Assembly (NCBI GenBank): GCA_022925895.1
Contig: JAKSYS010000524.1
Span: 1-43,886 of the forward strand
DNA from: Fragilaria crotonensis
Taxonomy: Eukaryota; Bacillariophyta; Fragilariophyceae; Fragilariales; Fragilariaceae
DNA length: 43,886 nucleotides
Direction: 5' to 3'
Of this stretch, positions 5,475 through 31,239 are shown one piece after another (position 1 is the first letter of the stretch; every line of letters starts with the position of its first letter). Under the pieces are notes generated by a model. That model was given only the letters and a program-made list of their open reading frames with translations. It was not told the DNA's origin and did no database searches. Both the position numbers and the translations under genes were made by a program.

Positions 5475-6848
5475 TTAGAATGAGTCATTTGGTCGTTGGT
5501 TCGTATGTCTGTTTTGCGCAACCCTCTCGGCGACTGTTCGATGTTCTCCACGCACTCCGTGCGTTTGCTGAGCCATTTTATGAAGAAAGACTGCTGACTT
5601 TCGTTCTTCTTCCTCTTCTTTTGGTGCCACAGCCTTTCGCTTAGCATCGTGCCTAATAGCATCACTCTGCATCGTTTTTAGCGCTTGTTCTCGTTCTTCG
5701 TGAGTCAACCGACGTCGATCAGGTTTCGCTTTGCGTTGGTACTCGCTATCTCTTTGATGATGTCGCCGATTGATCAAATCTGCGCTGGGTCCCAAATCCT
5801 TTAAATTTAGGGATTTGGTTGATCCCTGCAGTCCAAAGCTGTCACCACCGCCATCGCGTTTGCGATCCTCGCTTTTCCGCTCATGCCTAACATTATTTGA
5901 GGGGGATAATTCCTCGTTATCACGAGATTTTCTTTCGTCGCGTCTGTCGTTGTCTTCGTACACTGGTGCGCGTCGACGGTCATATTCCCGACTTCGTTCA
6001 CCAGAATATCGATCTCTTCTATAATAATCTCGCCTTGGAGAGTGTCCTTCACTATGATCATGATGCCGAAATCGCTGCCGTCGATTATCAGGGCTTTCCT
6101 CCCGATCTCGTTCTCGATGGTACTCCGGACTTCGTCGTCGGTAGTCATCCCTGTCACTATCAGACCGACTAACACTGCGAGATCTGTGTCGCCTTGAGCG
6201 AACAGCCTCCTTACGTACCTTGCGGTCTTTTTTTCTGTCCTTCTTTTCCCTCTTTCTGCGCACTCGGCTATCTTCATCGTCGCTCCGCACTTTCCCTACG
6301 ACTCTTTCATAGAGCGCCTTCGTTTTTTCAACCTTCACAACTTGTTCACGTCGTTTCTGACTGACTAAAAACATCGGGTCTTCATGTTTGACGCGAAATG
6401 CCTCGTTTCGTTCTGCCACAGATGGACCATCGACATAAGCGCATTTCTCAGCAGGTTGTTCTGTAGCCAAGTTAGTCACCACTGCATTGACTCCTTCGTG
6501 CTGGTCCAGAGCTTGCGCTAAATCACCCTTAATCTTAAGCGTTGGCCCACCGGTGAATTCTTTTCCTAATAAGTATTCTTCAGCTTGTTTCTTCGCGTCT
6601 TCTTTGGCGGCCTCAGATGTGACACCCTGATACATCCAGTCTATTCCTCTGTCCAATCGATTCGTTTTCCTGCCTGCAATACGATCCAAGTCTTCCTCTT
6701 CGCGTTCGCGTTGTATTTGCTTGGAGAGTTCGAGCGTTTTGGAGTCTTCTGCCGCTTTCTTCTGTTCCTCGATCCATACTCGCTCCTGGTTGGCCAAATT
6801 CTTGGTGTGCCATGACTTTTTGGATAGAAATGCAAGCCCCTGCACCAT
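5475..6848 (-). CDS. CWC25: Pre-mRNA splicing factor CWC25 homologue
   Basis: The 457-residue single-exon gene encodes CWC25, a spliceosome factor that joins around the first catalytic step and stabilises the branch-site/5' splice site arrangement. The N-terminus carries the diagnostic Cir_N/CWC25 block: GLAFLSKKSWHTKNLANQ, then VWIEEQKKAAEDSKTLELSK and QREREEEDLDRI, followed by GIDWMYQG. Residues from about 200 to 330 are rich in Arg-Ser, Arg-Asp and His-Arg pairs (RRHRSRSVSRSDSDRDD, RRDYYRRDRYSGERSREYD), an RS-like region expected in nuclear speckle proteins. The C-terminal part has the HEEREQALKTMQSDA and KAVAPKEEEEERKSAVFLHKM blocks seen in homologues. Length is close to the metazoan protein. 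The start at MVQGLAFLSKK places the domain at the extreme N-terminus as in the family. Confidence 0.88.
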   Translation of the reverse strand: MVQGLAFLSKKSWHTKNLANQERVWIEEQKKAAEDSKTLELSKQIQREREEEDLDRIAGRKTNRLDRGIDWMYQGVTSEAAKEDAKKQAEEYLLGKEFTGGPTLKIKGDLAQALDQHEGVNAVVTNLATEQPAEKCAYVDGPSVAERNEAFRVKHEDPMFLVSQKRREQVVKVEKTKALYERVVGKVRSDDEDSRVRRKREKKDRKKDRKVRKEAVRSRRHRSRSVSRSDSDRDDYRRRSPEYHRERDREESPDNRRQRFRHHDHSEGHSPRRDYYRRDRYSGERSREYDRRRAPVYEDNDRRDERKSRDNEELSPSNNVRHERKSEDRKRDGGGDSFGLQGSTKSLNLKDLGPSADLINRRHHQRDSEYQRKAKPDRRRLTHEEREQALKTMQSDAIRHDAKRKAVAPKEEEEERKSAVFLHKMAQQTHGVRGEHRTVAERVAQNRHTNQRPNDSF

Positions 6849-7987: not shown

Positions 7988-8920
7988 TCATTCCTGGAAA
8001 TCCTTCTTCGATTCAGATTGCCGCTTATCGAATAGAAAGTTCTCTCCTTGCCATATCGATGTGCGCTCGCCCACATTATTCTCTCTAGCCCATCTATGAT
8101 AGCCGATGATCCCATGCTCCAGTCGTCGAACATCCGAAAAACCCAATTTTTGTTTCAGGTATGCGCCGACTTTCACGCATCGAATTCCGCCTGTGCAAAA
8201 AATGTGAATGGGTTCATTCTTATCCAGGTGCTTCGTTTCTTCCTGAATTTGCTGCCATGATTCCTGAAAGACTTGTGTTTTCAGAGGAGTAGCCCCCGTG
8301 AAACTTCCCTTTTCGGATTCGTATAAATTCCGGCAATCCAGCAGCACCGACGATTTGGACTGCCGCAACTCCTGGTCCCATTCAGCTGGGGTCAACTCAA
8401 ATCCAGCATTGTCCCAATCTAAAGGCTCGCCCAGTTCATCCCGTAGAACGGCGTCGCGGGTTCGCACAATGAGCCGATTGAACGTTGGCGTAGACGCAGG
8501 TACAATGTCTCCTAGATTCGGTGCATTTATCTCAAACGGATCAAACGGTAGACACTCGATGCATGCATTCAACAGTGCGTCGAGTGGTTCTCCACAAGGC
8601 ACCGCAAGCTGTGCGTTGACACCCTCCGAAGCGAGATAGATAGTCCCCCGAAGACCAGGAATGTTCTTTACAGCCAAGAAAAGTTCGTCGCGCGTCGTCG
8701 TCGGATACGTGATGGGTGTGAAGCGATAGAACGACAGCATCTGAAGTTCTGTGGCACTGGTTGGAAGCGGTTGTTGAGAACAAACATGGGGAGAACCGCC
8801 ATTGCTTGAAGAAAACAGCGTGGTTGTCGAAAATTTACTGTAGAGACCCTCCGATCGGTTGAGTAAGCATACTATTGAAGTTGCCACGCGTGAGCTTACG
8901 AAGAGCTTCAATGCAATCAT
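7988..8920 (-). CDS. TrhO/TSTD2-like rhodanese-domain protein (tRNA uridine hydroxylase family)
   Basis: The 310-residue protein belongs to the TrhO (YceA/UPF0176) family. In bacteria TrhO hydroxylates uridine 34 of tRNA in an oxygen-dependent way. After a leader of about 55 residues comes the family N-terminal domain (LSFYRFTPI, GLRGTIYLASEGVNAQLAVP), then the rhodanese domain with LLDCRNLYESEKGSFTGA and the active loop CTGGIRC. Cys242 of that loop is the predicted catalytic cysteine and Cys248 is the conserved second one. The following KVGAYLKQKLGF and LEHGIIGYHRWARE also fit. The bacterial C-terminal Cys-rich segment is largely absent, as the protein ends soon after the rhodanese domain. 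The leader (MIALKLFVSSRVATSIVCLLNRS) is basic and hydrophobic and may direct the protein to an organelle. The domain assignment is secure; the substrate is inferred from family. Confidence 0.8.
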   Translation of the reverse strand: MIALKLFVSSRVATSIVCLLNRSEGLYSKFSTTTLFSSSNGGSPHVCSQQPLPTSATELQMLSFYRFTPITYPTTTRDELFLAVKNIPGLRGTIYLASEGVNAQLAVPCGEPLDALLNACIECLPFDPFEINAPNLGDIVPASTPTFNRLIVRTRDAVLRDELGEPLDWDNAGFELTPAEWDQELRQSKSSVLLDCRNLYESEKGSFTGATPLKTQVFQESWQQIQEETKHLDKNEPIHIFCTGGIRCVKVGAYLKQKLGFSDVRRLEHGIIGYHRWARENNVGERTSIWQGENFLFDKRQSESKKDFQE

Positions 8921-11524: not shown

Positions 11525-12181
11525 ATGTTGGCGGCCAGATTTCTTCGCACCACTACATTGGCGTCAGTCGTCCTCCTTTCGCGTGCATTCTCCGCCATCA
11601 TGCCATCAATTCACAAGCTTTCTGACTTGGACATGAAGGGTGAGACAGTCCCCATGTCCCAGTTCGAAGGCAAAATTCTCTGCATTGTAAACGTTGCCTC
11701 AGCATGTGGATACACCAAGTCAAACTATGAGCAGCTCTCTCAGCTATACGACGAATTCCCTGATAAGATCAAGGTTTTGGCTTTTCCGTGCAATCAGTTT
11801 GGAGCTCAAGAGCCGGTGCGTATCCGTGGTAAAGCGCGTCTGGTCTCGGTCAAATTTGCTCGTCGTGACGAGATAAGTGCTAACAAACTTAGTCGATCAT
11901 TTTCTGTACAGGGAACGCATGACGAAATCTGTGAGTTTGTAGCATCAAAACCTGCGTTCAACGGGGCAGACAAGAAGTTTTTCTTTTTCGAAAAGGCTGA
12001 CGTTAACGGACCCAAGGCTCGAGAGGTGTACACCTTTTTGAAGTCTAATACTGGAGGCGCTGACATCGGATGGAATTTTGAAATCTTCTTGGTTGACCAG
12101 AAAGGCGAACCGGTCAAGAGGTTCAATCCTTCGAGGAATCCCTATGCCGCCCTTAAACCCGAGATTGAAAGGCTTCTTTAG
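11525..12181 (+). CDS. Glutathione peroxidase (Cys type), one in-frame intron
   Basis: A GPx-family thiol peroxidase reducing hydroperoxides, probably using thioredoxin like other non-selenium GPx. Exons 11525..11815 and 11912..12181 join as EP|GTHDEICEF. The joined protein has 186 residues. Motifs in order are VNVASACGYT with the peroxidatic Cys61 (TGT, not a Sec TGA), LAFPCNQFGAQEPG (second Cys and catalytic Gln), FFFFEKADVNGPKA and DIGWNFEIFLVD with the catalytic Trp and Asn. The extension MLAARFLRTTTLASVVLLSRAFSA resembles a signal plus transit peptide, with SRA-FSA a possible plastid-type cleavage. An internal ATG (MPSIHKLSD, residue 26) would give a cytosolic form. The 96-bp intron is a multiple of three and has no stop, so the unspliced RNA would still encode a 218-residue protein with a 32-residue insert. 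Confidence 0.88.
   Translation: MLAARFLRTTTLASVVLLSRAFSAIMPSIHKLSDLDMKGETVPMSQFEGKILCIVNVASACGYTKSNYEQLSQLYDEFPDKIKVLAFPCNQFGAQEPVRIRGKARLVSVKFARRDEISANKLSRSFSVQGTHDEICEFVASKPAFNGADKKFFFFEKADVNGPKAREVYTFLKSNTGGADIGWNFEIFLVDQKGEPVKRFNPSRNPYAALKPEIERLL
11816..11911 (+). other. Stop-free 96-bp intron in glutathione peroxidase
   Basis: GTGCGTATCC...TTTCTGTACAG is a clear GT-AG intron: removing it restores the conserved EPGTHDEI. Its length is 3n and it contains no in-frame stop, so retention would be translationally silent apart from the insert. Confidence 0.85.
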
Positions 12182-12307: not shown

Positions 12308-15300
12308 TTAATTCTTCGGGTTTTGATATCCACCCGGAGCTGGAGCCACATTGGAGGCTTTGATGTCGCTGTATTCCCGCAGGAAGAAACGGCGGCTCTT
12401 AAGGTCGTAGGGTCTGCGACGAGGAGGATCACTACCACTCACAAATCCAACGTAGCTGAGAGTATTGAAAATCCAAATCGAACCTTGACGACCTCCAGAA
12501 CCACTATCATCCCAAAGCTTCTGTACAAAGGTAGACTCAGTGCACCAAGACTTAGGGACGCACCTCATGTTTCGAACATCTGGAGGGGCATCCGTTGTAG
12601 TGCCAATGAATCCTAAAGCGACGAATTCTTCGCCGGGAGGGACTGGTTCCCAAGCGTAAAAAGGGTTGCTGCCGTGGGTCAAGCTCCAAGCTAAGCGGTA
12701 ACGAGCAGGGTTGGGCATGAAACGCTCCAGCACAATTGGAAGCCAGCTGCTACCCATGAAGCTTCCAGTTGTATCCGTTACCTCGACCGCGAATCGGTCC
12801 TTCCCATCCCTGTTCGGATTGTCGTACTCGTATCCAGCGAAGTGTCCTAAGGTGACCGCCGCCTTGTTGGCTCTGAACGATGCGCTTTGGACAACCGGAG
12901 CCCAAACAGAAGTTTTGGACCGACTCATGCTTCCCTTGCTGTCCCAAATATTCACAAACTTGGTGATTTTCTTTACTTTTATCTTGATGCCAGCAAGGAC
13001 AGCCTCGGGGATATTGACATTCTTCTTGTCTTCTTCGTCAGTCGGCATAGGCGGCAGGGGCATCATCGAATCACCTCCGAACACAGGGAGCATCTCATTT
13101 CCACCCTCGCCGCCTTCCCAACCAACTGCCTTCTTGAATTCACTCAAATTGATGAATCCGTCGGTGTCCTTATCCACCTCCTTCATGAATCCAAGAAGGA
13201 GGGACTGGTCGAGCTTTAGGCCCAGCCACTCCAAGCCTCTGCGCAAGTCGTCATAGTTCAATAAACCATCACGATCGCGGTCGAAGTGAACGAAGGCATC
13301 TCGCGGGTACATCCCGCGGGATTTAAGCATCGCTGTGATCCTCCCAGTGGCAATTCGATACGAGAGTAAGTGGTGTTCATCTGCGGTGATGAAAACCTTG
13401 GACAAAGAAGTTGTCGCGGGATCCTTTTGCTTGCGTCGACGGTTGCTCATGACTTCGACAAAGTAGTTGTATCGCTTTTCGCAGGCGTTGTTTTGCAGAG
13501 CACGCAAAAGCAAATTAAGTTCTCTCGGCTGGTAGTTCACACTCGAGTCGATGAAACGATAACATGCCTGAGCAGTTCCATCCTGGAAGCTCTGCGCGGG
13601 AGCGTACCCAGCACTGGCATCCAGCATTGTCCGGTCAGTCCGCAGGGCAACCATAGTATCCTTTCCAGGAACTATCGGCAGCCCATGAGATTGGTGGAGA
13701 ACAGCGCGCATACACTCAGCTTCGAACAACGATAGGGCGACGTAGTACCTGCCGGCTTGGACCCGATAATAGAGACGCTGGGTCAACATGTTTTGAGATC
13801 ATCGAAAGTGATGTTTCCTTGACCGCTGGTGGGATCAAGGTTCATATTCTCGAAAAACTTATCACCTTCTTCCCCATCAACATCGACGTCGACTGCTCGC
13901 AGAACCTCTTTGATTTCAGAGAGAGAAATGCCCGCTCCGGTGCCTCCCTGGGCAACAGAGAATGCCTTCTTCAGATTCTTCTCTTGTTGAGGAGTGAAAG
14001 GCTTGCTCACAGCAGCAACTTCACGTAGTGCCTGCTTTGATGGCACGAAGTCCATAGTTACGATGACATTCTTCAAACGACGATGAGTCTTCATGCTCCA
14101 AGACTTCTCGTAGTAGTTGTTCGAAACATGCAGAAATTCGGGAAATTCAACAGATATAGCCTTCGAGAAAGTGTAATTTTTGACCGAGAATTGACTAGCA
14201 GGATAGAAGTGTTTCTCCCACGGCTCGATTTTGTCCTCTTGCGTGTTCTTGTCACCTGCACCCTGCGCCGAGTATTGGATTTGGCTTCCTTTCTTAGGAA
14301 CAGCCAAAGACCTCACTAGCCAGGGCTGCGGGTTTTCACCATCGCGAGCGTATTTCTTCTTCTTAGCGCTCTCGTTGACAACTTCCTCCTCCTCCTCCTC
14401 CTCTTCTTCCTCCTGCAAGAGAATAGAGTGTGAACAAATGAGATGAACACGTTGACAATATTGGCATTTAGGCACAACAATTTGAAACAATGTTCTCACC
14501 TCTTCTTCCTCCTCTTCCTCTTCTTGCTCCTGTAACACCTCTTCTTCAGCCGTTTGCTCTTTTTGAAGATCGACGTCCTTGTCGTCGCCAGCATCATCTT
14601 CGAGTGTCGCTGGGCCCAAATTCTTCTTTGCCAAACCTTCAGAATTGATGAGAACCATGAGAATCTTATCAACAACGGCCTTATCATAGTCGTTGACGAA
14701 GAAATCTGCCCGGCGAACAACACTGTTCCGCAAGTTTTCGGACAATGGCACCGGAAGTGGAATACTGTTGTGAACGGTATAATCTATGCGCTCTGTCAGA
14801 ATATCCAAGCATTTCTGCAATTTTTCGATCCCGACAGGTTTTCCTGATTAGCGCCAGTGACAGGGATAACAATACTTTTGATCTGGGCGATGTCGTCCGC
14901 AAAAAGCTTTTGGCTTCTTTCGAACAGGCCATCGATATCCGATGCAATATCGCCGCTGCTATTACCAACTGTGTTCGTAGTCATCGAAGCAAACTCCTTG
15001 ATGCGACTTGCGAAGGCCAGCTGACTTAGCTCCTTGTAGTTTTGCGTCAAAACCCCGTGAGCTCTCTTACGCGTAACGTTGTCAATACTCTGATGGCAAA
15101 GCATACGGAATTGTACATTTTCCGACTTCATTCCATTGACAACCAACCAAGAGGCGATGTTTACAAGCAACTGGCGACCCTGCGTTGCTGAGGATATCGA
15201 TATACCCACGTTCGGAGCATTGAGTGAAAGCATGTCAGACCCATACCCTCCTTGAGGCTGCTGCACAACTGGCTTAAAAAGACTCGCCCCGGTACTGGCC

Positions 15301-18300
15301 TTCTTCATCTGGTCATCAATCAAGCGCAGAACTTCAGGGATGACGAACACATGGATGGTCTGGCCCTTTCCAATGCCACGCATTCTGAACGCACCCTGTG
15401 CATAATCTCGAAATGTCATATCCTTCCCCAAAGTCAAGACAGCTCGTGCATCGATACCTTGATGAATGTCCATTCCTGTTGTGTGAATCTGATCATAAAA
15501 GGAAAAACGCCGGTCCGGTGGGATACCAGCCTGATTGAGTCGAACGACATTCATGCCGTGGCGCATCAGAATCATCTTCCTATCCGCGTGATCCAAGAAA
15601 ACAACTCCTTCGAATTGTGAACTCAAGCCATTGTTGATCATGTACTTTGCGACATCGTAGTTACTCATTCCAGTCACCAAAGCACCAGAGTCAATCAGAA
15701 CGTGGAATGGTGGTTCCGACCTTATAATGTCATCAAGCAAGCCTTTCACAGACCACGACGAAGGGAGCAGTCGAGTAGAGCAAATAGTCTCCGACGTCAA
15801 ATAATCGAGTATCTGTCCATCGACGCATTCATCGAAATGACACTGTCCCAACTCCTCGGGAAGAAGATCACTTGGAGTTCCACTAAAACCAACCCTCCTT
15901 CCAAAGAGCATCTCACCACCGAGATCTTGCCCGGAAGCACTGATCTTCTCATGGTGATGTTCCATCGTCAAAGGGAAGACGAAGCTATCAAGATAGTACT
16001 CGATGACCTGAGGGATGTTCTTCAAAAGGTTGTAAGTCACCCCCATGTGGTGGTCATCCTTCAAATCCAACAAGTGAAGTGGCCAGATGTCATCTGACCC
16101 CCTTCCGCCGACTTTTCCAGTCATAGGAGCACGAAGGAATGCGTCTGCTTCGTCGGGGGTGACATCCTTTTCCCCTTCGCGTGGACCACGAACCTTCCCA
16201 CCTGCCGCTTCTACCCAAGCCTTGTAACGCAGTGACGAGGGTCGCTTGTGATACGGACCATACTCAGAATCAAGCTGCTCGCGCAGTTCTAGGAGGCAGT
16301 TCTCGAAGTCAACGAAACGAAGACCTTCGTAGCGATACGCAAGAGTGGTGAGGCCGATGACAACATCTGGGTGAGAAAACTGGCTTGCTCTGCTAGGAAC
16401 ATCCTTTCCTACATAGGGAATAGCAGCAAGCCTTCGAGTCAACGACACATTATTTCCACTTGATCCGGCCAGGGCGAGCTTCAAATCTTGTTTTGAAAGC
16501 AATCCAAACGACACTCGGTTTATCTTGCCGAGCATGAACGGGAGGAAATTATTCAACAAATCGTGGCTCAAGTTAAGCATCTTCATGTACTCGTCGTCGA
16601 GGGCCACGGAAACAGCAGATGCTGCGGCTTTATCCTTGTTCGGACCGTTGACCATGTACGATAGTAGATGCTTGTCTTCAACCGAGGGAAGTCGTTTGTT
16701 TCGGAGAAAAAGTAGTTGCCAACGAGCCATCAATAATTTCAATTCCTTGTGGTAGAATACTCGATTCAATAAGACAAGATGAGGTGTCTGCTGGATGAAT
16801 TTATTCGACACGCCTTGTTGAATCACCCCAGATATGCTCTCGAGGATAGAGATTGCTTCTCGACTATCTTCGAACGCTACCGACATCTTCTTTGTTTTTG
16901 TATAAAAGATGGGATCCAACAAATGCCATTGAATTTGCCATCTCAAACCGACCCCAAGCTTGGATCTCGAGAAATCGATTGGATCCTTGATACCGATTGG
17001 CCAATTCAATTCACTTTTGAGAGGATGGAGAATGAGATCCACTTCGTCAAGCAAGAGAACTCCACCCCTGAAGAGTTTCATTATCTCTACACAGTAGTAC
17101 AAGTCTTCGGGGTCAACCTTAAGTTCTTGAATAACAGAGCTGTCGCGGAATCTTCTGGCGATGCTTGACAAAGAGAACGCAGACAAAAACCCTCCATCGT
17201 TCTTTCTCTTTCCTTTCTTCTCCTCTAGATGTCGCATCATTTCAACAAACTTGAGCATGAATGACTTAACACTAGTTGGAGTGGCACATATCACAGCCTT
17301 GCTGTCTCGAGCCTTGCAGAGTTTCAAGTACAGTTCTCTGGTAACCGGTGAGCTGCGATCAAACTGGAACGTAAACACAGGTTTTCGCACCACGGCAGCG
17401 AACTTCTCACGCATGACACCTCGTGAGAACTCTAGGAGTGCATGAGGTACCACCTGAGTGACGAGGGACTTGCCATCAGCCAGCATGAGGGCTAGAAGCG
17501 GAGTGACAACAGTTGTCTTTCCGGCACCCATGATCATCTGGTGGCACATTGACTTGTTGTTCTTAAGGGAGTCCATGAATTTGTTGACAAGAATCACCTG
17601 GCTCTTTCGAAGCATGATAGAATAGGTAAACTCAAACACAAGGTATCTCGGATCAAAGCTTATGAAGCTGGGATTGGCACTATCCATCTTCATGAAATGG
17701 CGCTCAGTCATGATGTCGGTGGCAACTTTAACTGACTGCAACTTGATCTCCTGGCAAATACGGCTGCGTTCGGCAATTTTGTTTGAGGCTTTCACTCTTC
17801 TCAATAGAAGAATTAACTTCCGGAGGCTACGTGGAGGAAGTCAATGAGTAATTCATTCAAATCTGTTGCAGCACCGATATATCATGGACTTACCTGGTTA
17901 GAGCTCGATCGGTCTGACTGATACGGATTGACGTCAGCATGGCAACTATCGTGAGACTCATGACCGTCTTATAAGCGGTGGCTGACATGTATGGATTAAG
18001 CGAACGTATGTCATGCTCTGCAGTGGTCGAGAGGATCGACGAGACGAGGAGCTCGAACCAAACAGACGGCTCTCGTTCACTACACTGCCCGAGTCGGAAT
18101 CGAAGAAAATTGCACTCGCCATTCGGACCACCGGCGTTCGGTGTGTCGCTCCTTTCGTCGCTAGTGGCGATTGCAAGGGCGCGATTCATGAGGTTCCACA
18201 AGGACTTTCGATCAAAATCCATAGCATTGTTCAATGCCTTGATCAACTTGCTAAGCTGGTCTGTGGCTTTGCTCAGAGCTGCAGGTGAATCGTGGAAGGT

Positions 18301-21300
18301 ATCGATTTCACGAGGCATAAATCCGAGTAGAATTGCAGTTTTTTCCGCATTCGTTTTCTCTGCATACTTCATCACATCGGTCGTGATGCGGTTCATAGTT
18401 GCTTGCGAGCAATGAGTCTGAGTGGCTCTCTCGGCGCCCAAACTAAATGGCAGGCCACCTGACACAGGGGCTAGTCCGAGCTGCGAACGAGTCAGCTCTT
18501 GCACAAAATTCTCGAGTTTCATTGGTGCAAGTGGCCTCGTCGCGAAAGCCTGCAGTTGCCTGGATGGAATATTCACCGACGCGCAGTTTTCAATATCAAG
18601 ATGGAAAATATTCTGAGAATAATCTGAGATCCTGGGCACAACCCAAAGTCGATGCTGGGAGTATGAAGTCGGCCGACTCAGGATCATAGTATTCCTTGGA
18701 GTCGATTCGTTCAAAACTTCATGAGAAAGTCTCATATTGCGAACATTCTGCTGTTGGAAGAACGTGCCGAGTTGTTCCAACAGGCGACTAACGGCGTCTT
18801 TCCCACCGAGAACACCTTTCAACTTGGCCATCCCGCTGTCGATTTGAAACTTGGGGATGTTAGGGTTTTGCGCTATTGCTGGATTCTCCGAAAGAATGCG
18901 AAGGACCGACATCTCGGCGGAAGTAGTTTTGTAGTCAGACGGCGGGAGCAATCGAAATAGAATTCGTCCCCAGTTGTGGGGGCGATCACTCGGATGCAGT
19001 TTGAAAGGGACAGTATTTGTCATCAGATCGTACAGCAAGGGAAAGCCATACTTCGAAGACTGCACTTCAATGCCGGAGTTAAGCGCCCCGTTGATAAATT
19101 CAAGAGCCCTGATTCCCCCGTATGCAACTTGATCCTATACCCAAGAGAAAATATTCAGTATTACAATATTTTGCAATCCACGCTGTGAAGTGCGGAAGCA
19201 TTGGTCTTACCTCTTCTGGTCTCGCGTATGCAGCTCCAAATAACTTCGACGAAATCATAGTCTTTTTTGGATTATCGATGATTGTGTTATCGACGATAGC
19301 ATCGAAGTTCTCAAACGATGGCATTTTTTCTGACCCAAGTCTTACAGTCAGCGACTTATCGGGAGGTAGTTTTCCCAGGCTGCTCACGGCAGTCACGTAC
19401 GCCTTTCGGTTCAAGAGCGCTAAAGACAATCTGTCCCTGGCAGAGGGAGTACAGAGCTGAAGGAGCAGCAGTTCCTCTTCGGTACTTAAACGACAAGCTG
19501 AAGACACGTACGGGTGTTTCTTGCAATACTCCTCCATTTCCTCTGCAACACTCCACGGGCATTTCATTGAGTCATCGCCTCCAAGACCGACAGTAACAAC
19601 AGAGAGCTTTAGACGACAAGCGTGAGCATCTGGGTGCATGTCATTCCCTAGATACTCCAACTGATCGAATATCTGCTTCTCTTCTGGTGTAAGCTCTTCG
19701 CTAACGCAGGATTCAACCATCTTAAACACCTCCTGATAAGAACCAGTAATGAAGTACATGACCATGAGATACATCGATGACGCCAACGAAGGCGTCACCA
19801 AGAAAGATCTTGAGTTATGAATTGGATACATGTAGCAGCGAACTTCTCCGATGTTGTCAATCCACTCTTGGTTTCTTCTATCCAGAATCACCTGCACCGA
19901 AAGGTGTGAACCATCGATGTGCAAGCGGCGAGGAAGAGCACATCCTGGCATCAGAACGAAGAGATCGTTTTCGGCATTCTGCAGGACAAGAAAGTGGGAG
20001 ATGGATCCAAGTAATCGTTCTGCGATTTCCCTAGACTCCACGGAAGTTGAGATAAAGAGGCCGTCGTGGTCGTTGCTGTAAAGACGCTGCTCAATCTGTC
20101 CATCTACCGACTCCACTTTCCGTGACACAAATTTGAGGTTCACTCTCGGAAGTTCAATAACATCAATCGACGCTGCTGCATGTGCCGACGTGACACTGCT
20201 TGCGCACCAAAACAAAACGTGAGCTAGGTTGTCTAGCCTTGACAACAGCAAGCCGATTCGTTTAAGAAGCGATGACGGCGGGGCCGACAAAACATTAAGG
20301 AGCGTCATAATGGGACGATTAGGGTCGATTTCCACAATTTCCGGCCTTGCGTTTGAAACAGGAATGCGTTGGATCATCGCCTCTGCGCTTGAATTACAGA
20401 ATCCGCTCCTGTCAAATTCTTCGCTCTTCGCGAGGGTAATCCTCAGCCTTGTCGTCGGCCTCTTGTCGTCGTCGACACCGTTGTCTGATTCGTCATAGTC
20501 TTCCCCTTTCCCCGGTTGAGTCTCGTAGCCAATGATGTTATCGTCTTCGCTTTGCCAGAATGTGTACCTTTCGATCAAGGCCGTAGGTAGAAGGCCTGCC
20601 AGATACCTATCTTGAATCAATGTTTGGGTTCCCAGTTCGGCATTCAATGCACGCGTGATTATGAGGGTCGATTCTGGCTCGAGTGTTGTCATCGGAATTC
20701 CCGTTGACATAGAAAGGATGCCCCCGACACGGTCAGGGTAAGGCTCTCCAGAACCTTCATGCTGACAAAGAGACATGTTCGAGGTGTACTCGAGAACGCG
20801 GAAGTGACGCCTACCATGCTCAGCAACATTAAAGATGTTGATCAAAGGCGGATATTGCCAAACGACGACTTCCTTGAGTGTATGAGTGCATAGATTACCC
20901 GTCGTTTTCGGATTCTCGATCCATCCAGCTAGGAGGGCAAATGGCTCCTCTGAGAAGTCCTTAGTGGACAACTGCAGCGCAACATTGGGAAGAAGTAGAT
21001 TGATCTTGTCCTTCAGAACATCCTCAATCCATCTTTCTCCAGGTCGGAGTCCACTGGGAAATTTTCTGGTGAAGGCTGGATTGAGCGCCTCCTTGATGGC
21101 GATATAGTTTCGCGTGTCGGGAGCCCACGATTGAACATCATGCCTGCGACCGACCAAACTCCACCAAAATCTGTTCGTGGTATGCGTGACCTCTGCACAC
21201 GCCAGATCGCTGGCATCTTTTAAGGCTGTTTTACGAGTGACTTGAAAGTCTGAATCTTCCATTATGTTCTGATCGAGTAGCGACATCTTGTGGTTCTGTA

Positions 21301-24300
21301 GGGTGAAGTCGCTCAATTGCAGATTCACCTCGATTCCGACAGCCTTAGTGGTCACATACAACATCCAGTCCTCAAACTTTTGCCCTGGTTTCGGGATGCG
21401 ATATGTGCCATTCCTTAGCTTGATGTCTTCCGTGTCCGGGATGAATCGTCCATAACATGTTTGATGACCGATACTCTCCCAGTGGCGCTCTTTAAGTTCC
21501 GCATCGCCCACCTCGCGAGTCCCGGTTCCGGTGGCGATGCGTACAACTGCCTCCATCGCGTGATCACCCTCCTTTTGATGCTCTCGAATGAATCGAAAGA
21601 TGTGATACCGCTTCGACTGGATGATATCGAAAATCTCAGACTGCGCGATTTGGATGGAGGGCGGGGGGTGCGTTGGATTTGGGGTATCCTGGAGATCATC
21701 ATACACATTGTTGCTGAAGCGATGATTAATCGTCAGGTACACCTGAGACGATAAGAGGACAGACACGGCTCTGTAGTCGAGGTCTTCATAGCTGTAGTTT
21801 TTGAAGAGGTACAACAAGTGAGAATGAACCAAACAAGAGACATCGACGTCTTTGTTTCGCGACGGATCAATCCAATATTCAAGAGTGGGAATCGCTTGCG
21901 AGTCGAGCATATTCCTGATTTTTTTGACGGCGGCTTCTATCTTTAAGTTGTCCATCGATTCAAGGCCTCGTGGTCTTGGCTGACCCGGACGGCATTTGCT
22001 GAGAGCGTACTTCAAGTAGCCCTCAACACGAACTGCCAGTCGTATCGTATACAAAATCAAGGGACCCGAGGACGAAACCTTAGTGTACTTTCCAACATCC
22101 ATGTCAAGAGCTCGTTCCAGCATCTTGGTGATGCATGAAGTCAACACATCTGGCGATTTGGCAATCTCGTTGAAAAGGGTGCCATGAGGAGTAGCAAGCA
22201 GCATATGTAGTTTGTCCCTATCAACAACGGGGACCTCTGTGATCATCTCGGTAAAGTCAGCAGGTTTCCAGTTTCCTGGCTCGAAGAGTGCTGCGTCCAC
22301 AATTAATTGAAGAGACTTGGTCTTCAAAGCAGTAAGTCTTCCAGGATCTCCGTTGGCGAAAAAGTCAAGGATAAGTGGGATGCGGATGTAAGGCACAGTT
22401 AAAAACTGGACAAATCGCTCTGAGTCTGAAGGGGTAAGAACGTGGCCAAAGGAGGGCAGTTCTTCTTTAGTCAAGTGAAGAACATCATCCTCGTTGTCCA
22501 CACTGATGGGTTTGGCTCGAGACTTCTGGAATTTCTCGCCACAGGAATTGACTACGTTGGCAGGATCAGCCGAAGATAACCTCGCACGCTCTTCTTTGCT
22601 TTTGTTGAACAATGACAAGAACCCCTGAAACCCACTTGCGCTTTCTTTAGTGGCTGTGATGGCAACTTTATCCACAAACTCCTGCTGGGTGCCGCGATAG
22701 GCTGACACGTTGTAGGAGAAGGCAGGATCTTCCTTGTCCTTTCGATGTAAGTCCCAACGAAGCATAGCGTCGGACGGCGTCCATTGAACGGGGCCTTCTT
22801 CTTTTTAGGGTCATCGGGAGGTGTCTGAGCCTTCCCGGAAACGGAGTGTTTGAAGTGAAACACAATATCTCGGAAGTATTCGAATTCTGGGAGAACCTCG
22901 ATAATAGCGCCATTTCTACCTACAATAAGCGCCGCCGCATGATTGCATACCTGCACTTGATTTGAAATGTCAGGTCGTGGCAGAGCTAATTGGATAGCCA
23001 ATTGGTTGATTAACGCAATATCGCCCTCCATGGGAGATAGGCTCAGGTCAAAGTTAAATATCGTGTTTCGATAAGAGCCATCGGGCTTCAGCATCAAGCC
23101 CCGCAAGTAATCCAAACACTGGAATCGTAACGAACACATGTTGGGATCGTAGATAGGAAGGTTTGCTCCAAGTGTGTCAAACGCACCAGCCTCGATCCCA
23201 TACCAGTCCGTTGGGCCTTCACATAGACCTGAGTAGTGTAGGGCAAACTGACTGGGGTCGTCAACTGCCTTGACACGACAAATAGCGTCCGCAATACACG
23301 CGGCGCATGCAAATGTAGTGGACCTTATGGCAACCAAACCACGTGATTGCTGCACGCAGGCCGTAGCCGCCGAGTAGATTCGACAGACGCGACGAATCAA
23401 AAACATGAGGTTGACTTGAGTCTCTCTCCTCATTTCTGCTTTCCTCCAGAAGCAGTGCTTAGGATCCAAATGAGGCATTGGCAGAACGTGCGTTAACGCG
23501 TACTGCGTGGCAGATGCAGCAAAAGCAGCGGCGTTCTTTACTAGCTGCCTCTGCTGCAAGAGAAGACTACATGCGTCAGCGATTCGTTGAAGAGACGACG
23601 CTGCTTCTTGGAAGTTCGTGGCCACGGGGGGAAGCTTCTCATCCGTCAATACAGCTGGGATTAGTATGGGGTCTGGACGGGGCGAGCCCATCAGATGCCT
23701 AACAACTTCCGCATAGTTGTCCGTACGAAGGCGACCAAAGAGCGGATGCGCGACAGATCCAGCATCAGTTCGAAGCGAGGCAATACTCCCCTTCGCAAAC
23801 GCGTCGTTTTGAGCTGTAGTAGATAAACCATGATTGTAGATGTCGACTGGCTTGGCACCGGCATAACTTAGCTTCTTCAACGTCTTGTCAAGGAGATCCC
23901 ACGTACTGGACAATGATGCGCCAAGCGTGCCATCTGCAACCGATAAAGGGTCTAGTGTAGACGCATAATTCGCCAAGTTACGCCCAGCCAATTTAAGGAT
24001 CCTTGTATCCTCTGGATCCATGGACGAAGGTGGCGAATTCTCAATCGTAGCATACGCCAAGTCCATTGCAGCGTTCATTACCAGGAGTGTTGAGTACTTT
24101 GCGGGTCGGGCTCCGCCAGCGGGCGTTGTTGCAAGTGCAAGTCTCGCTAGAGGGTGAAAGGACATGGCAGAGATCTCATCCGGTGCCTCCAAAAATTCAT
24201 GAGGCCCTTGATCCAAGTTCGACAGTAGCGGTTGTGAATTCAGAGCTGGCATTAATTTCGTGTATAGGAAATGGGCATTATTCTTCTTGGAAGGATAAAC

Positions 24301-26157
24301 CTGCATCCTAAACAATAGCGCCCAGAATGTGCTATCCATCAATCGTTGAGACGGAATGTTCCAAACTGTCATGGCCAGTTGCTTAAGTTGACGCCCAGTT
24401 TCCGGATCAAAACTCGATGGATGGTACTCCAACCCATCAGCGCCAGTATTGATGACTGTGAACGAGAATTTTCCATCTCCGCAGTTGCGGACTATGTAGA
24501 GACACAGGTGGGCGTAGTCTGGTTGCTGCCAACCACCAGGAAGAACCAACTGCTGATTGGTTTGGAGATTTTCAATCACGGAGACGAAAACGTTTAGAAA
24601 GTTGAGAAAGAGCCCATCCAACTGCTTCCCAGAGGCACCCGCTGAGTGAGGGAGAATACTGATAAGCTTGACGCACGCTTCGCACGCCCAGTGATTCATT
24701 CGGAGGAATGAAAGCGGACCATCTACGGAGGCTGTATTGTTGCGCTTTCCAAGGCCAAACCGTCCACGACCGCTACGTGCAAGACCGTCAGTCTCGACGA
24801 CGACGTGACAAATGAAGCTCAATGCCTTCGATAGTTGCGCATACATGCCAGCCACGTCAGCTCGCTTCTCCTTGGAAATAGGAAATCTGCGCACATAGCT
24901 TTCCAACTGCATGAGTGCCCAGAAAGGCGGGACTCGGTAAATAGGAGAGAATGTACGTTTTGGAAAGACTCCATCGGTTCCGGACAAAAAGTCGTAGGGA
25001 TTGAACGAAGCTGACTTCATGTGCACTGACGATAGAGCCCCAATATCATCCCCAACAGAAGGGAGAGTGACACCACTAGATCCAATACCGGTGTACGTCG
25101 CTGTAGCCGCTTGCTTGGCGAGCACTTCCTTCTCCTTGCGCATCTGCTCCTTGAGCCGAGCCTCTTCCTGCTCTCGAACGCGTCTGGCCTCTCGCTCTTC
25201 CTTGGTTGCGACGACAGGGACAGCAGAAGTGGCCCCTGAAGTAGGAATGGGGATCGAGGGAAGAACCTTTTGGGACGGTTGGGATGATGTATGCGGCGGT
25301 GGCGTAGGCGACGCGTATCGTTGAGTTGCAGGTGGCGTGGGCGATGCATATCTCTGAGACAGCATCGGAGTTGGGGAAGCTACAGGCTTCGGCGCGGGAC
25401 GAGATGTCTGCGGCGCTGCGATCCCGAGTCGAGCCATGGCAGATGCTGCGTCGTTGCTAGCGGAAGTCGGGGACGATGTTGATTGAGCTTGAGCTGCGGG
25501 TGAAGTGGGCTGGGGCGTGGACGCATTGGATTTAGGGGAAACGGTTTTCTGACCTGCTGACATAGTTGGAACAGCGGAAAGAGGCAGCGACGATGAATAT
25601 TGAGGAGCAGGGATTGGTGCAGGGATTGGCGCAGGTGTTGAGTCTAAGCCAGCAAAGGGATCGTCTGCACCAAGCCTGAATGCAGAAACCGAAGGAGTTG
25701 GGGCAGGGGCACTAAAAGTTGCTGAAAGCGGCTGGACAAGCGTCGGAACACCGTAATTCGGCATGCCTTGATTTTGTGTCGGGACAAACGATTGTTGCTG
25801 TTGGAGAGGAACAAACGCGTTTGGTTGCAACCCATATGAAGGACTTGGAAGACTTTGTGACAGAGGTCTCTGCTGCTGTTGAATCGATGACGGAAAGGAA
25901 GTTTGCTGCATGCGTTGCTGCATGCTCTGCTGCTGCACGTTGACTGAAGGAGGAGGAGCAGCGAAGACATCAGGTTGAGCTTGAAGAGTGACGTAAGCCG
26001 GTGGAAACCAACCTTCTCGACCGTTGTACGAGCCCCACCACCACGCACTTCCTTCCTGACCAGGTTTGGCAGTCAACACAGCGCCCTTCGGAAAGGTCAG
26101 TTGAGACTGAGCCGCTTGACCTGCAAAGGCATGCTTTGCAAGATAAGTTTGCACCAT
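12308..26157 (-). CDS. Giant SH3 / DUF3638-DUF3645 P-loop / EF-hand / Vps62-like protein
   Basis: One gene of about 4,540 codons. Exons: 26157..19211, 19134..17894, 17826..14500, 14412..12308. The start opens an SH3 domain (residues 1-60; GSAWWWGSYNGREGWFPPAYV). Next come a Gln/Pro/Ser-rich disordered region to about 310, a charged coiled coil (about 320-350) and a long region with the family block VPYIRIPLILDFFANGDP. The DUF3638/DUF3645 core looks like a superfamily-2 NTPase: QMIMGAGKTTVVTP (P-loop, about 17510-17530), GGVLLLDEVDLI (Walker B, about 17045), GFSGTPSDLLP (about 15880), TTGMDIHQGIDARAV (about 15465) and YAQGAFRMRGIGKGQ (about 15385). An acidic linker, EF-hands (HFDRDRDGLLNYDDL, EVDKDTDGFINLSEF) and two Vps62/VPS13-like repeats follow. 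The function is unknown; a Ca-regulated ATPase at membranes is inference. Frame breaks lie near 22795, 14825 and 13791. Confidence 0.8.
14413..14499 (-). other. Stop-free 87-bp intron inside a poly-Glu tract
   Basis: GTGAGAACATTG...TTCTCTTGCAG on the minus strand is a textbook intron. It is 3n with no stop, and it splits a glutamate repeat: eight Glu before and ten after join to 18 consecutive Glu. The hydrophobic and Cys-rich insert it would encode is unlike its surroundings, supporting removal. Confidence 0.85.
17827..17893 (-). other. Intron of the giant gene (67 bp)
   Basis: Donor ACCAG|GTAAGTCC and acceptor CCACGTAG|CCTCC, phase 2. Joining gives ALTSLRKLILLLRRVKAS without a stop. Confidence 0.85.
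19135..19210 (-). other. Intron of the giant gene (76 bp)
   Basis: Donor GAAGAG|GTAAGACC and acceptor GGGTATAG|GATCAAG, phase 0. Joining gives AYARPEEDQVAYGGIRALEF, a smooth continuation. Confidence 0.88.
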
Positions 26158-27060: not shown

Positions 27061-30000
27061 CCCTCATTATTGATGAAAGGAAGTTCAATTCTGGCGTTGG
27101 TTAAGATGTGATGCAGTTGATCAAACTTGACAGGAGTTTTCAGGATGACATTCCAGAAGACGTTTGTCAATTTCCCCCAAGAAGATAAGACAGATAAGGT
27201 ACCCTTCTCTCAGAGCAATTCAAGGAAGGAAAAAGCTGGCTGCTAGTATATACTATGTTTTCATTTTATGGTCACTCCTGAACACCCTGGGTTGTGCATT
27301 TGGTATACTTTATGTGAAATGCATACAATTTGAGTCATTTTGTTGTAGAGCAGAGACGATACTTTTGTTTGTTGCGGCGATACTGGCGTACTCGACTAAG
27401 GAGAATTATTGTTGTACTTTCATGCTGTGTCCGCATTAATTTATGAATGGGACATATGCATTCTTTCTGATGATCAAGATTCTTGATCCTTTGATGTTAC
27501 ATACCAGTTGGAACAGGACATGCATTGAGTTTTGTGACCTGTTTTGGTATGCTATTTGAGGTGCTCTTTTGTCGACATGAGCAACGCATCACGGAGACGG
27601 ATATGTGTGCGTTCATTGCAATTGAAAGAATAACCTATAGTAATGATGGCAACTTTGACTAGAGAAAGTTTCTGCATCATAGTATTGGTTGATTTGCAAA
27701 GTTTTAGACAATTCCCGTCAAACAAATAAGTACTATATTATAGTTCTTCATCAGATTCATCCCCATTGACATTGCTGTCAGCATCCTGCATTGTTCCGGG
27801 CGGATTCATTACAGAGTCGTTGACTTTATTGGCTTCCGCAAGATAAGGAAGACCTCAAATTCAGGTGGCTGAGAGTAGCTCCTCACAACTCATGACTGGT
27901 GTTCACATGGACATTGCCTGGGAGGATGGTGCAACACTTTGCTGTTGAGAATTTGTTGTGTGGGGGAGCCATGTAATGAGTTGTGCACACAGCATCGTCC
28001 TCCTGAGGAAGGTGGGTGGCAAGCCTCTTGGGCGCCATTTTACAACAAACACAATGATCAGATGTCAATATCCTTCTTAGGAGATAATGAAATAATGAAA
28101 AGCTTGGTTGATTACAAAGCAAAAAAATAGTGTGAAGAGGGGCAGATATGGTTGTTTTGAATACCTTGGTAGTTGCAATGCCGAGCAAAAAAGTAGGAGA
28201 AGGAAGATGGCCATACCATGAGAAAGTATGGTCAATAAGAGAATGGGCAACAATACAACATAAAGGACATCACAGCATGTGAATTGAGATTATGCCAGGA
28301 CAATGATGGGATCACTAAATATGGCATCAATGAAAAAGTCATTTTAAAAACCACAAGCAAAATGGAGCATTTGATGCACTTGCCAAACAAGATCCATACC
28401 ATGCATGTTGATGACAAGAGTGTTTAATGCAACAAATGTGCACGTCGGTTAGACACAGAAGATTTCCCTGCAACACATGTTGTTGTAATGATGTACACAA
28501 CATCTTTTAACAATACACTGTCACAGGTAGATATGATCATGTAGTACATGTATGCCATTACTACAAATACTATGGCCTGAAGGTTACCAACATCACGAAA
28601 ACATGAAATGACATTCTGACAAAAATCACCTTCTGATGTGGTATTCCTGTTTGATCATTCACAGAGACATGCTTTCAAATGCTGGGACAGCATCCTCGGT
28701 GCTCTCAACACAATGTCAAGAACCTGCCAAAAAATCATAACCACAGATGCAGGATGATGAGGTACTACATACAATGACAATTTTGGTTTTTGTGGTATTC
28801 GGACGAGGCTCAGAGACAGCTAAAGCTTGAGTATAGAAGGCACGCAACGTAGTAGTATACAAGGACTCGTCATCAAGAACAAGCTGGCTTTTGCAGGATT
28901 CAAAGCAGTGCTGGAGGATTGTACTTGAAATCAAATACATGGTTGCTATCGAAAATGCACAATTACTAGACCTCATTATCCTGACCCTCAACTGTAATTA
29001 CTTTGTCCTTAAAAACAGAATCAATGAAACAACAGACAGAGTCATGGTGGGCACATCTGTGACCCCTAAGAAAGGACTTCATGAGGAGATCAATCTTGGT
29101 CTATTGAAACATATGTGTGGGAGAATGAACTTCAATTGGAGCAAGAGTTAATGTGGCAGCTGCAGCAGGAGGAGGCCCTTCTCACACCTGCTCCTTGTAA
29201 TGGTAGGTGCATCCATACACCCAAGTCCAGACTGCAAACTTCTCAATTGTCCTTTGTTATCAAATTTTGCAATGAAGTGCCGTTTCTCTCCGCATGCAAT
29301 TGGTACACGCCGATGGTAGAAGGACTGTGCATAAGCCCACCAGCAATACTCTCCATCACCTGCACGCTCAGCATGAAATTTTGGAGTGACCTACAAGCTC
29401 AGCCTGGATTCATGGAGTAAGATCAAGGTGGAGCCGTTTTGAATTCACAAATATTGAAGTGCTGTCTCCTTGTTTTTACAATTTATACATTTGGAATGAA
29501 AATGACACAGCTAGACCTGTAACTTGGTGGCAACACCAGTAAATGGATTTTAAAGCATGTCAAGTGAATACCATCTAAAGGTTGTTCACCAATCCTTGGA
29601 GCTAACCTTTAGCGCTCCTAGAAGCAAACCTTTTTGCTCTCCCTCCTACACCAGGAGAATGCAAATATGCGTTGTCTTCATGTAGAACTAGGAACCGTAA
29701 GGAACATTGGTCGATGCCACGTATTTGCAAGTCTTGGTGTAGTGTCTTTGTCTGTGGCTTGATGCTGCTGTTAGAATGCCACTCCAGTATTGGTCAGCAA
29801 ATTTGCAAATAGCAAATGCTTTGACCATTCAGATTGTTGATTTTCCCTACTGGTTGGTTGTACCATTCACCAATTGCTTGTTTTGTTCAACTATCAGGAA
29901 AAATGGTCCATTTTCACCAGCTAGACAACATCGCCAATGTTGAGAGAACAAGGTAAGTAGTAGGAATCGAGAAAGAATTTGCTGCATCCAGTTTTGTTGC

Positions 30001-30477: not shown

Positions 30478-31239
30478 TCATCTCTGGCGAAGTGAAGGAG
30501 GCGTCTGAAAGGCTCGGACTGTCCAATTTATACGACGTGATGTGGGTGGGTCCATTGTAATTCGTCGCTTAGGTACTTCATGATAATGTGTCTGTTGACA
30601 TGTTCCACCCATAATGAGCAAGTCGCCGTCATTGAGATACACTTCAGTCTTGACCTTCTTATCGGACCTTTGTCGAAATAAAAAGCGTCGCGTTCCACCC
30701 CAAGAGAGGCTCCAGATAGGACAGTCATGGCGTAGAGATCGTTCATCGTCAGAGTGAAGACCAATGGTATCCTCTGGTTCGTACCAGTTCTGCAAACACC
30801 CATTATAGGGCGAGTCGTACATGAGTACTCCTTGTGTCATTTCATTAGCCTTTTCAATCAATGCCGTTACCATTTGCGACTCTTCCAGGGGCTTAGCAAT
30901 GTTCGTCGACCCACTGTACGCGTAAGAGAAGCCCCATGATTGAGACCATCTGTTTTCATGAACTGCCCTGCCAAAGATCTTCAGTTCATGCCGTACCATT
31001 GGGTGCAAGTTCCACTCCGCCTCAAAATTCTCGGAAGGCAACCAATTGCGCTTCAGAAGGTACCACGATTCGCCATCGGGAGTTAGGTAACACGCGTTGG
31101 CGCCAAGCCGTTGCGCCAATGTGTTCGCTGTTTCGTTGGCAGGAGACAATTTCTTTCCTTTTTTGGCGGCAAAATAGCTCGGCAAAGTTCCCTTTTTGTT
31201 TATTGATTCCGCCATGAACAACGCTATTCCGGAGTGCAC
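30478..31239 (-). CDS. AlkB-type 2-oxoglutarate/Fe(II) dioxygenase
   Basis: The 253-residue AlkB-family enzyme is probably of the ALKBH2/3 type that removes alkyl groups from nucleic-acid bases by oxidation. The catalytic core is complete: N151-W-Y153, H162-S-D164 (first two iron ligands, in GLHSDDE), the distal iron His in THYHEVPK (H220) and the 2-oxoglutarate-binding RxNxTxR motif R236-I-N-W-T-V-R242. DCPIWSLSWGGTRRFLFRQR and VYLNDGDLLIMGG are typical strands. The N-terminus KKGTLPSYFAAKKGKK resembles a PCNA-interacting (PIP) box with Lys in place of the usual Gln. This suggests recruitment to replication or repair sites. A second Met (MAES, residue 9) may be the real start, leaving the PIP-like box about 8 residues from the N-terminus. 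Substrate (DNA or RNA) is not resolved. Confidence 0.85.
   Translation of the reverse strand: MHSGIALFMAESINKKGTLPSYFAAKKGKKLSPANETANTLAQRLGANACYLTPDGESWYLLKRNWLPSENFEAEWNLHPMVRHELKIFGRAVHENRWSQSWGFSYAYSGSTNIAKPLEESQMVTALIEKANEMTQGVLMYDSPYNGCLQNWYEPEDTIGLHSDDERSLRHDCPIWSLSWGGTRRFLFRQRSDKKVKTEVYLNDGDLLIMGGTCQQTHYHEVPKRRITMDPPTSRRINWTVRAFQTPPSLRQR

Follow-up and report, generated by a model that had tools for sequence, protein, structure and literature searches.

A putative giant DUF3638-family protein with an SF2-type motor core in Fragilaria crotonensis, and its relatives in Chlamydiae

Background

What kind of protein joins an SH3 domain, two domains that Pfam lists as unknown, a pair of EF-hands and a Vps62-type block? 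The question is raised by a minus-strand gene of the diatom Fragilaria crotonensis, found in a stretch of 43,886 nucleotides (contig JAKSYS010000524.1), here called the window, which is the whole of one contig (C475) in an assembly of 62.1 Mb and 881 contigs. An earlier note on this DNA described the gene as having four exons and its product as a SecA- or helicase-like motor under calcium control. We give a probability of about one half to the following reading: the gene product is a single giant protein of the DUF3638 family, in which an ATP-driven remodelling motor is combined with a dead hydrolase-like domain and with SH3, EF-hand and probable beta-tripod parts of eukaryotic kind.

The excerpts available to us of the literature that names DUF3638 or DUF3645 give no function; DUF3638 is mentioned there in a microsporidian gene-family table, in connection with a fungus that has nine expanded genes, and for two new Tetrahymena genes.

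A two-lobed motor core

The region consists of six long open frames, P0006 to P0001 in reading order, and a Pfam scan places both unknown domains, DUF3638 (PF12340) and DUF3645 (PF12359), in the same one, P0003. Both are above their curated cut-offs, PF12340 with 88.7 bits against 31 and PF12359, further downstream, with 53.4 against 25; the giant gene gave the sole PF12340 match found in the assembly. The motifs that the earlier note had quoted are all located in the minus-strand translation, and its description of a DUF3638/DUF3645 core with motifs of superfamily 2 (SF2) type is borne out (Table 1). Sequence and model together support an SF2-type ATPase whose core is made of two RecA-like lobes, carries Walker A and Walker B as well as motif V- and VI-like segments, and has a long stretch inserted between Walker B and the motif III-like GFSGTP.

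The motor reading is also right at the level of the fold. In the model of the core, the two lobes match SecA, the top Foldseek match, and SecA, too, carries a long insert, after Walker B and before a GxxGT-type segment, which we take to be in the same position as in the giant protein. However, the SecA label is a likeness that the sequence tests do not share: for the giant protein, Pfam gives no SecA match at E values up to 1, and the best hhalign probability, against 16 Chlamydiae SecA sequences of low diversity, is 2.6%.

Two overlooked domains and their relatives in Chlamydiae

The sequence comparisons indicate that two conserved domains between the SH3 domain and the motor had been overlooked. 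The middle one, with helices that look TPR-like by eye, is recognized by a profile (m4) that matches 32 of 33 bacterial open reading frames (ORFs). The N-terminal one may have a fold like the cysteine-protease-like domain of the Legionella effectors LegA15 and AnkD (PDB 7kj6, 7xql, 7ew8; the naming varies by source), as the model of a bacterial relative suggests. LegA15 is an ankyrin-repeat effector and was found to act as a GTPase, in which H268A has little effect and N290A a mild one (PMC9757750).

The window copy and the aligned bacterial copies differ in a key residue. In the 16 bacterial rows of the alignment (A4), His, Asn and Cys are present in that order, whereas the window copy has the His and the Asn, and no Cys between P0006 residues 583 and 887. 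The N-terminal domain of the giant protein would thus be cysteine-hydrolase-like and catalytically dead, having lost its key Cys. A segment LHYSGLC (P0006 residues 997-1003, 23241-23221 on the minus strand) resembles the bacterial Cys motif, and lies about 300 residues too far downstream.

By sequence, many Chlamydiae carry giant proteins that appear to belong to the same family as this eukaryotic gene, and many of these would join the motor to the cysteine-hydrolase-like domain; the N-terminal, middle and motor blocks (L002-L016, L053-L072) follow each other in the same order as in the window. A paper on the expansion of ubiquitination-related families in Chlamydiae (PMC4209131) deals, in its available portion, with other domains.

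Several observations on the relatives can be added. Four genomes (G047, G072, G079 and G080) have at least 11 scored DUF3638 matches each, many in ORFs of about 3,000 amino acids, so that a large share of a small genome is devoted to one uncharacterised family. A DUF3638 ORF at a contig edge of genome G251 (L089:2-4285), with the Walker A MGEGKS, scores 158 bits to PF12340, above the 119 of the best row of the other PF12340 search; it groups with the window in the tree (support 97/63, not starred), and contamination is possible. Two giant ORFs of 3496 and 3802 amino acids (L090:5013-15500 and L091:2940-14345), from the phylum of L004, have PF12340 below cut-off; the first matches the core profile at 7.9e-24, and the second has only a short blastp match, 6.9e-5.

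Eukaryotic-type parts around the family blocks

The other Pfam matches above cut-off are at the two ends: the SH3 domain, in P0006, and the EF-hands and Vps62 in P0001, while P0005, P0004 and P0002 have none. The N-terminal SH3 and the two EF-hands of the earlier note are both upheld, and the two EF-hand loops have canonical sequences, from which calcium binding is predicted. Between the motor and the EF-hands, P0002 contains two glutamate-rich low-complexity runs (14377-14565, minus strand).

The C-terminal end had been described as a pair of Vps62/DUF946 blocks like those of plant VPS13. One block is retained: PF06101 scores 27.5 bits against a cut-off of 22.1, again in the sole match found in the assembly. 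The second, at 12434-12478, falls outside that match, and the scan of the six pieces lists no VPS13-type match. The accessible part of one study predicts that the 'Vps62 domains' of plant VPS13M1/2 are beta-tripods and traces the Vps62 name to a spurious alignment (PMC7613979). Here too the label is a likeness with a doubtful name, and the block is probably a beta-tripod.

Three bacterial proteins of the family, one of them truncated at its N-terminus, show no SH3, EF-hand or Vps62 in a Pfam scan. Compared with these three, the SH3 domain, the EF-hand pair and the beta-tripod block appear to be eukaryotic additions around the family part. Introns are present, and several neighbours are eukaryotic in kind, such as the splicing factor CWC25 and Paf1.

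One gene or several

A start ATG at 26157 and a stop ending at 12308 both fit the gene. To join its pieces, we used a simple splice score of our own, with 300 places within the same gene as background (median 5.17, 90% point 6.17, maximum 7.17). Two GT-AG introns exceed all 300 places. At the three remaining junctions, the open frames overlap, and none of the in-phase GT-AG pairs that they contain is above background: these junctions look like frame changes, and missed introns are possible, none of which stands out. The four exons proposed earlier are thus replaced by six open pieces, two clear introns and three frame changes.

Frame changes of this sort occur elsewhere in the assembly. Among 36 scored HSP70 matches, some switch to another frame where their coordinates overlap or coincide, while the match goes on along the profile, and other copies are whole. 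The switch extends over five bases, 29805-29809, in C358:28853-30596; it is at the shared base 37013 in C452:36900-38794; and C881:132913-134688 has a switch over overlapping or shared coordinates together with internal stops. These three breaks point to base errors, or to pseudogenes, in other parts of the assembly. Because some HSP70 genes break in a similar way, base errors in the assembly are the probable cause of the three frame changes of the giant gene.

If, on the contrary, the frame changes were real, neither assembly errors nor missed introns, we would have a decaying gene, or several genes. Three changes within 13.85 kb, with no splice pair above background, speak for this explanation. 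However, each break is flanked by long open frames, the motor motifs are intact, the HSP70 genes break similarly, and the order of the family blocks is maintained past the first frame change and, on weak evidence, past the second and third. We consider it very improbable.

The window also contains ordinary neighbours: Paf1 (1694-2416), CWC25 (5478-6848), a UPF0176/rhodanese gene (7991-8920), a glutathione peroxidase (11525-12178) and a 2OG-Fe(II) oxygenase (30481-31239).

Table 1. Features of the giant gene, with positions in the window
Feature	Position	Strand	Evidence
Whole reading region, first ATG to stop	12308..26157	-	Open frames P0006, P0005, P0004, P0003, P0002, P0001; family blocks in one order, last block weak
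SH3 domain, P0006 residues 31-81	25987..26139	-	SH3_2 1.5e-5 (best stretch 43-81), SH3_9 4.4e-5 (31-81)
Pro/Gln/Ser-rich linker	25030..25977	-	Translation; no match in Pfam scan
N-terminal conserved domain, His/Asn half, P0006 540-671 (aligned 550-671)	24217..24612	-	64 bits, E 2.5e-21 (among the six pieces; profile from 16 bacterial rows, window row left out)
P0006/P0005 open-frame overlap, frame change	22552..22804	-	Best of 105 in-phase GT-AG pairs 5.67, within background
Middle conserved domain, P0005 862-1116, TPR-like helices by eye	19457..20221	-	60.2 bits, independent E-value 8e-20 (among the six pieces; profile m4)
Intron, GT-AG, in phase, 76 bases	19135..19210	-	Splice score 7.5
Intron, GT-AG, in phase, 67 bases	17827..17893	-	Splice score 8.5
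DUF3638 (PF12340), RecA-like lobe 1	17217..17651	-	Pfam 4.6e-25
Walker A, GAGKTT	17511..17528	-	GAGK in 14/14 rows of alignment A2
Walker B, DEVD	17037..17048	-	DE in 14/14 rows
DUF3645 (PF12359), within the long insert	16347..16439	-	Pfam 1.5e-14
Motif III-like GFSGTP	15873..15890	-	First G and T in 14/14 rows
Motif V-like HTTGMDIHQGID	15450..15485	-	G in 13/13 rows reaching the motif
Motif VI-like QGAFRMRGIGKGQ	15360..15398	-	RxR in 12/12 rows reaching the motif
P0003/P0002 open-frame overlap, frame change	14796..14847	-	Best of 21 in-phase GT-AG pairs 5.17, within background
P0002/P0001 open-frame overlap, frame change	13783..13798	-	Best of 19 in-phase GT-AG pairs 6.0, within background
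Possible last family-domain segment, P0001 81-136	13391..13558	-	Weak: 8.5 bits, E 2.3e-4 among the six pieces; hhalign probability 9.6%
Two EF-hands	13124..13303	-	EF-hand_7 6.8e-11; loops 13282-13247 and 13174-13139
Vps62-type block, probably beta-tripod	12434..12991	-	PF06101 1.4e-6 over 12506-12991, profile 28-172 of 541

Discussion

This analysis supports the class of the fold, the motifs, the family blocks and the absence of the Cys, and the mechanism that we propose starts from them. Binding and hydrolysis of ATP would open and close the two lobes, and this movement would pull or remodel whichever polymer is bound, a polypeptide being more likely than a nucleic acid. Two points favour a polypeptide: SecA has the same fold and presumably the insert in the same place, and in many bacterial relatives the motor is linked to a cysteine-hydrolase-like domain. 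Since the window copy lacks the Cys, its N-terminal domain may bind rather than cut. The roles that we propose for the SH3 domain, the EF-hand pair and the beta-tripod block are the recruitment of partners and the gating of the motor by calcium. The substrate, the calcium control and the cellular location are what we infer.

Several points weigh against this remodelling motor. The model of the core reaches a moderate 63.6 in overall confidence and falls under 50-60 over much of the insert, and the Foldseek TM-scores of the whole chain are at most 0.33 by query length (five rows at E 0.001). Sequence searches gave no convincing solved relative. As with SecA, hhalign is not significant for Mfd and PriA (18.8 and 33.1%), the templates being of little diversity. 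The search for relatives was loosened with a fungal-like row. Some bacterial copies are also without the Cys: weaker ones such as L066, L010, L012 and L014 do not show it. The three frame changes leave the single polypeptide putative. Finally, the scores of DEAD-box, DinG, RIG-I and SNF2 structures are close to that of SecA, so that the fold is compatible with more than one class of substrate.

This last point gives some room to a nucleic-acid motor or sensor, whose SF2 core would bind RNA or DNA as RIG-I-like and DEAD-box proteins do, and whose added domains would signal. It is a possible explanation, and we hold it for the less probable one: the sole helicase match in Pfam is a weak ResIII (0.015, below cut-off), the scan of the six pieces found no known nucleic-acid-binding domain, and two SecA entries align over 474 and 471 residues (root-mean-square deviations 4.6 and 5.2), against 332 for DbpA (4.1). 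The P-loop core might also have no motor activity at all, its parts merely holding partners together. The SH3, EF-hand and beta-tripod parts are indeed binding modules, and one neighbouring domain is already without its catalytic residue, but the window, like every aligned relative that extends far enough, retains the Walker A Lys, the Walker B Asp-Glu and the RxR segment, and this makes a pure scaffold unlikely.

Returning to the remodelling motor, a bolder and rather doubtful extension can be formulated for the whole family. DUF3638 proteins would be single-chain ATP-dependent hydrolases, in which the SF2-type motor passes its substrate, perhaps a ubiquitin-like-modified protein, on to a cysteine hydrolase of the same giant chain; Chlamydiae would have retained many copies of the active form to be used in their hosts, and this eukaryote would have kept a cut-dead, calcium-gated unfolding or remodelling machine.

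Conclusions

The observation of the earlier note is partly confirmed and its interpretation partly supported, and the protein appears both real and unusual. The more interesting part is the wider finding of a giant motor-protein family, with a hydrolase-like partner domain, across a eukaryote and the Chlamydiae, bacteria that live inside eukaryotes. It connects a eukaryotic protein family to Chlamydiae and, by tying DUF3638 to an SF2-type motor, to a LegA15-like hydrolase domain and to giant chlamydial proteins, it may provide the family with a testable mechanism.
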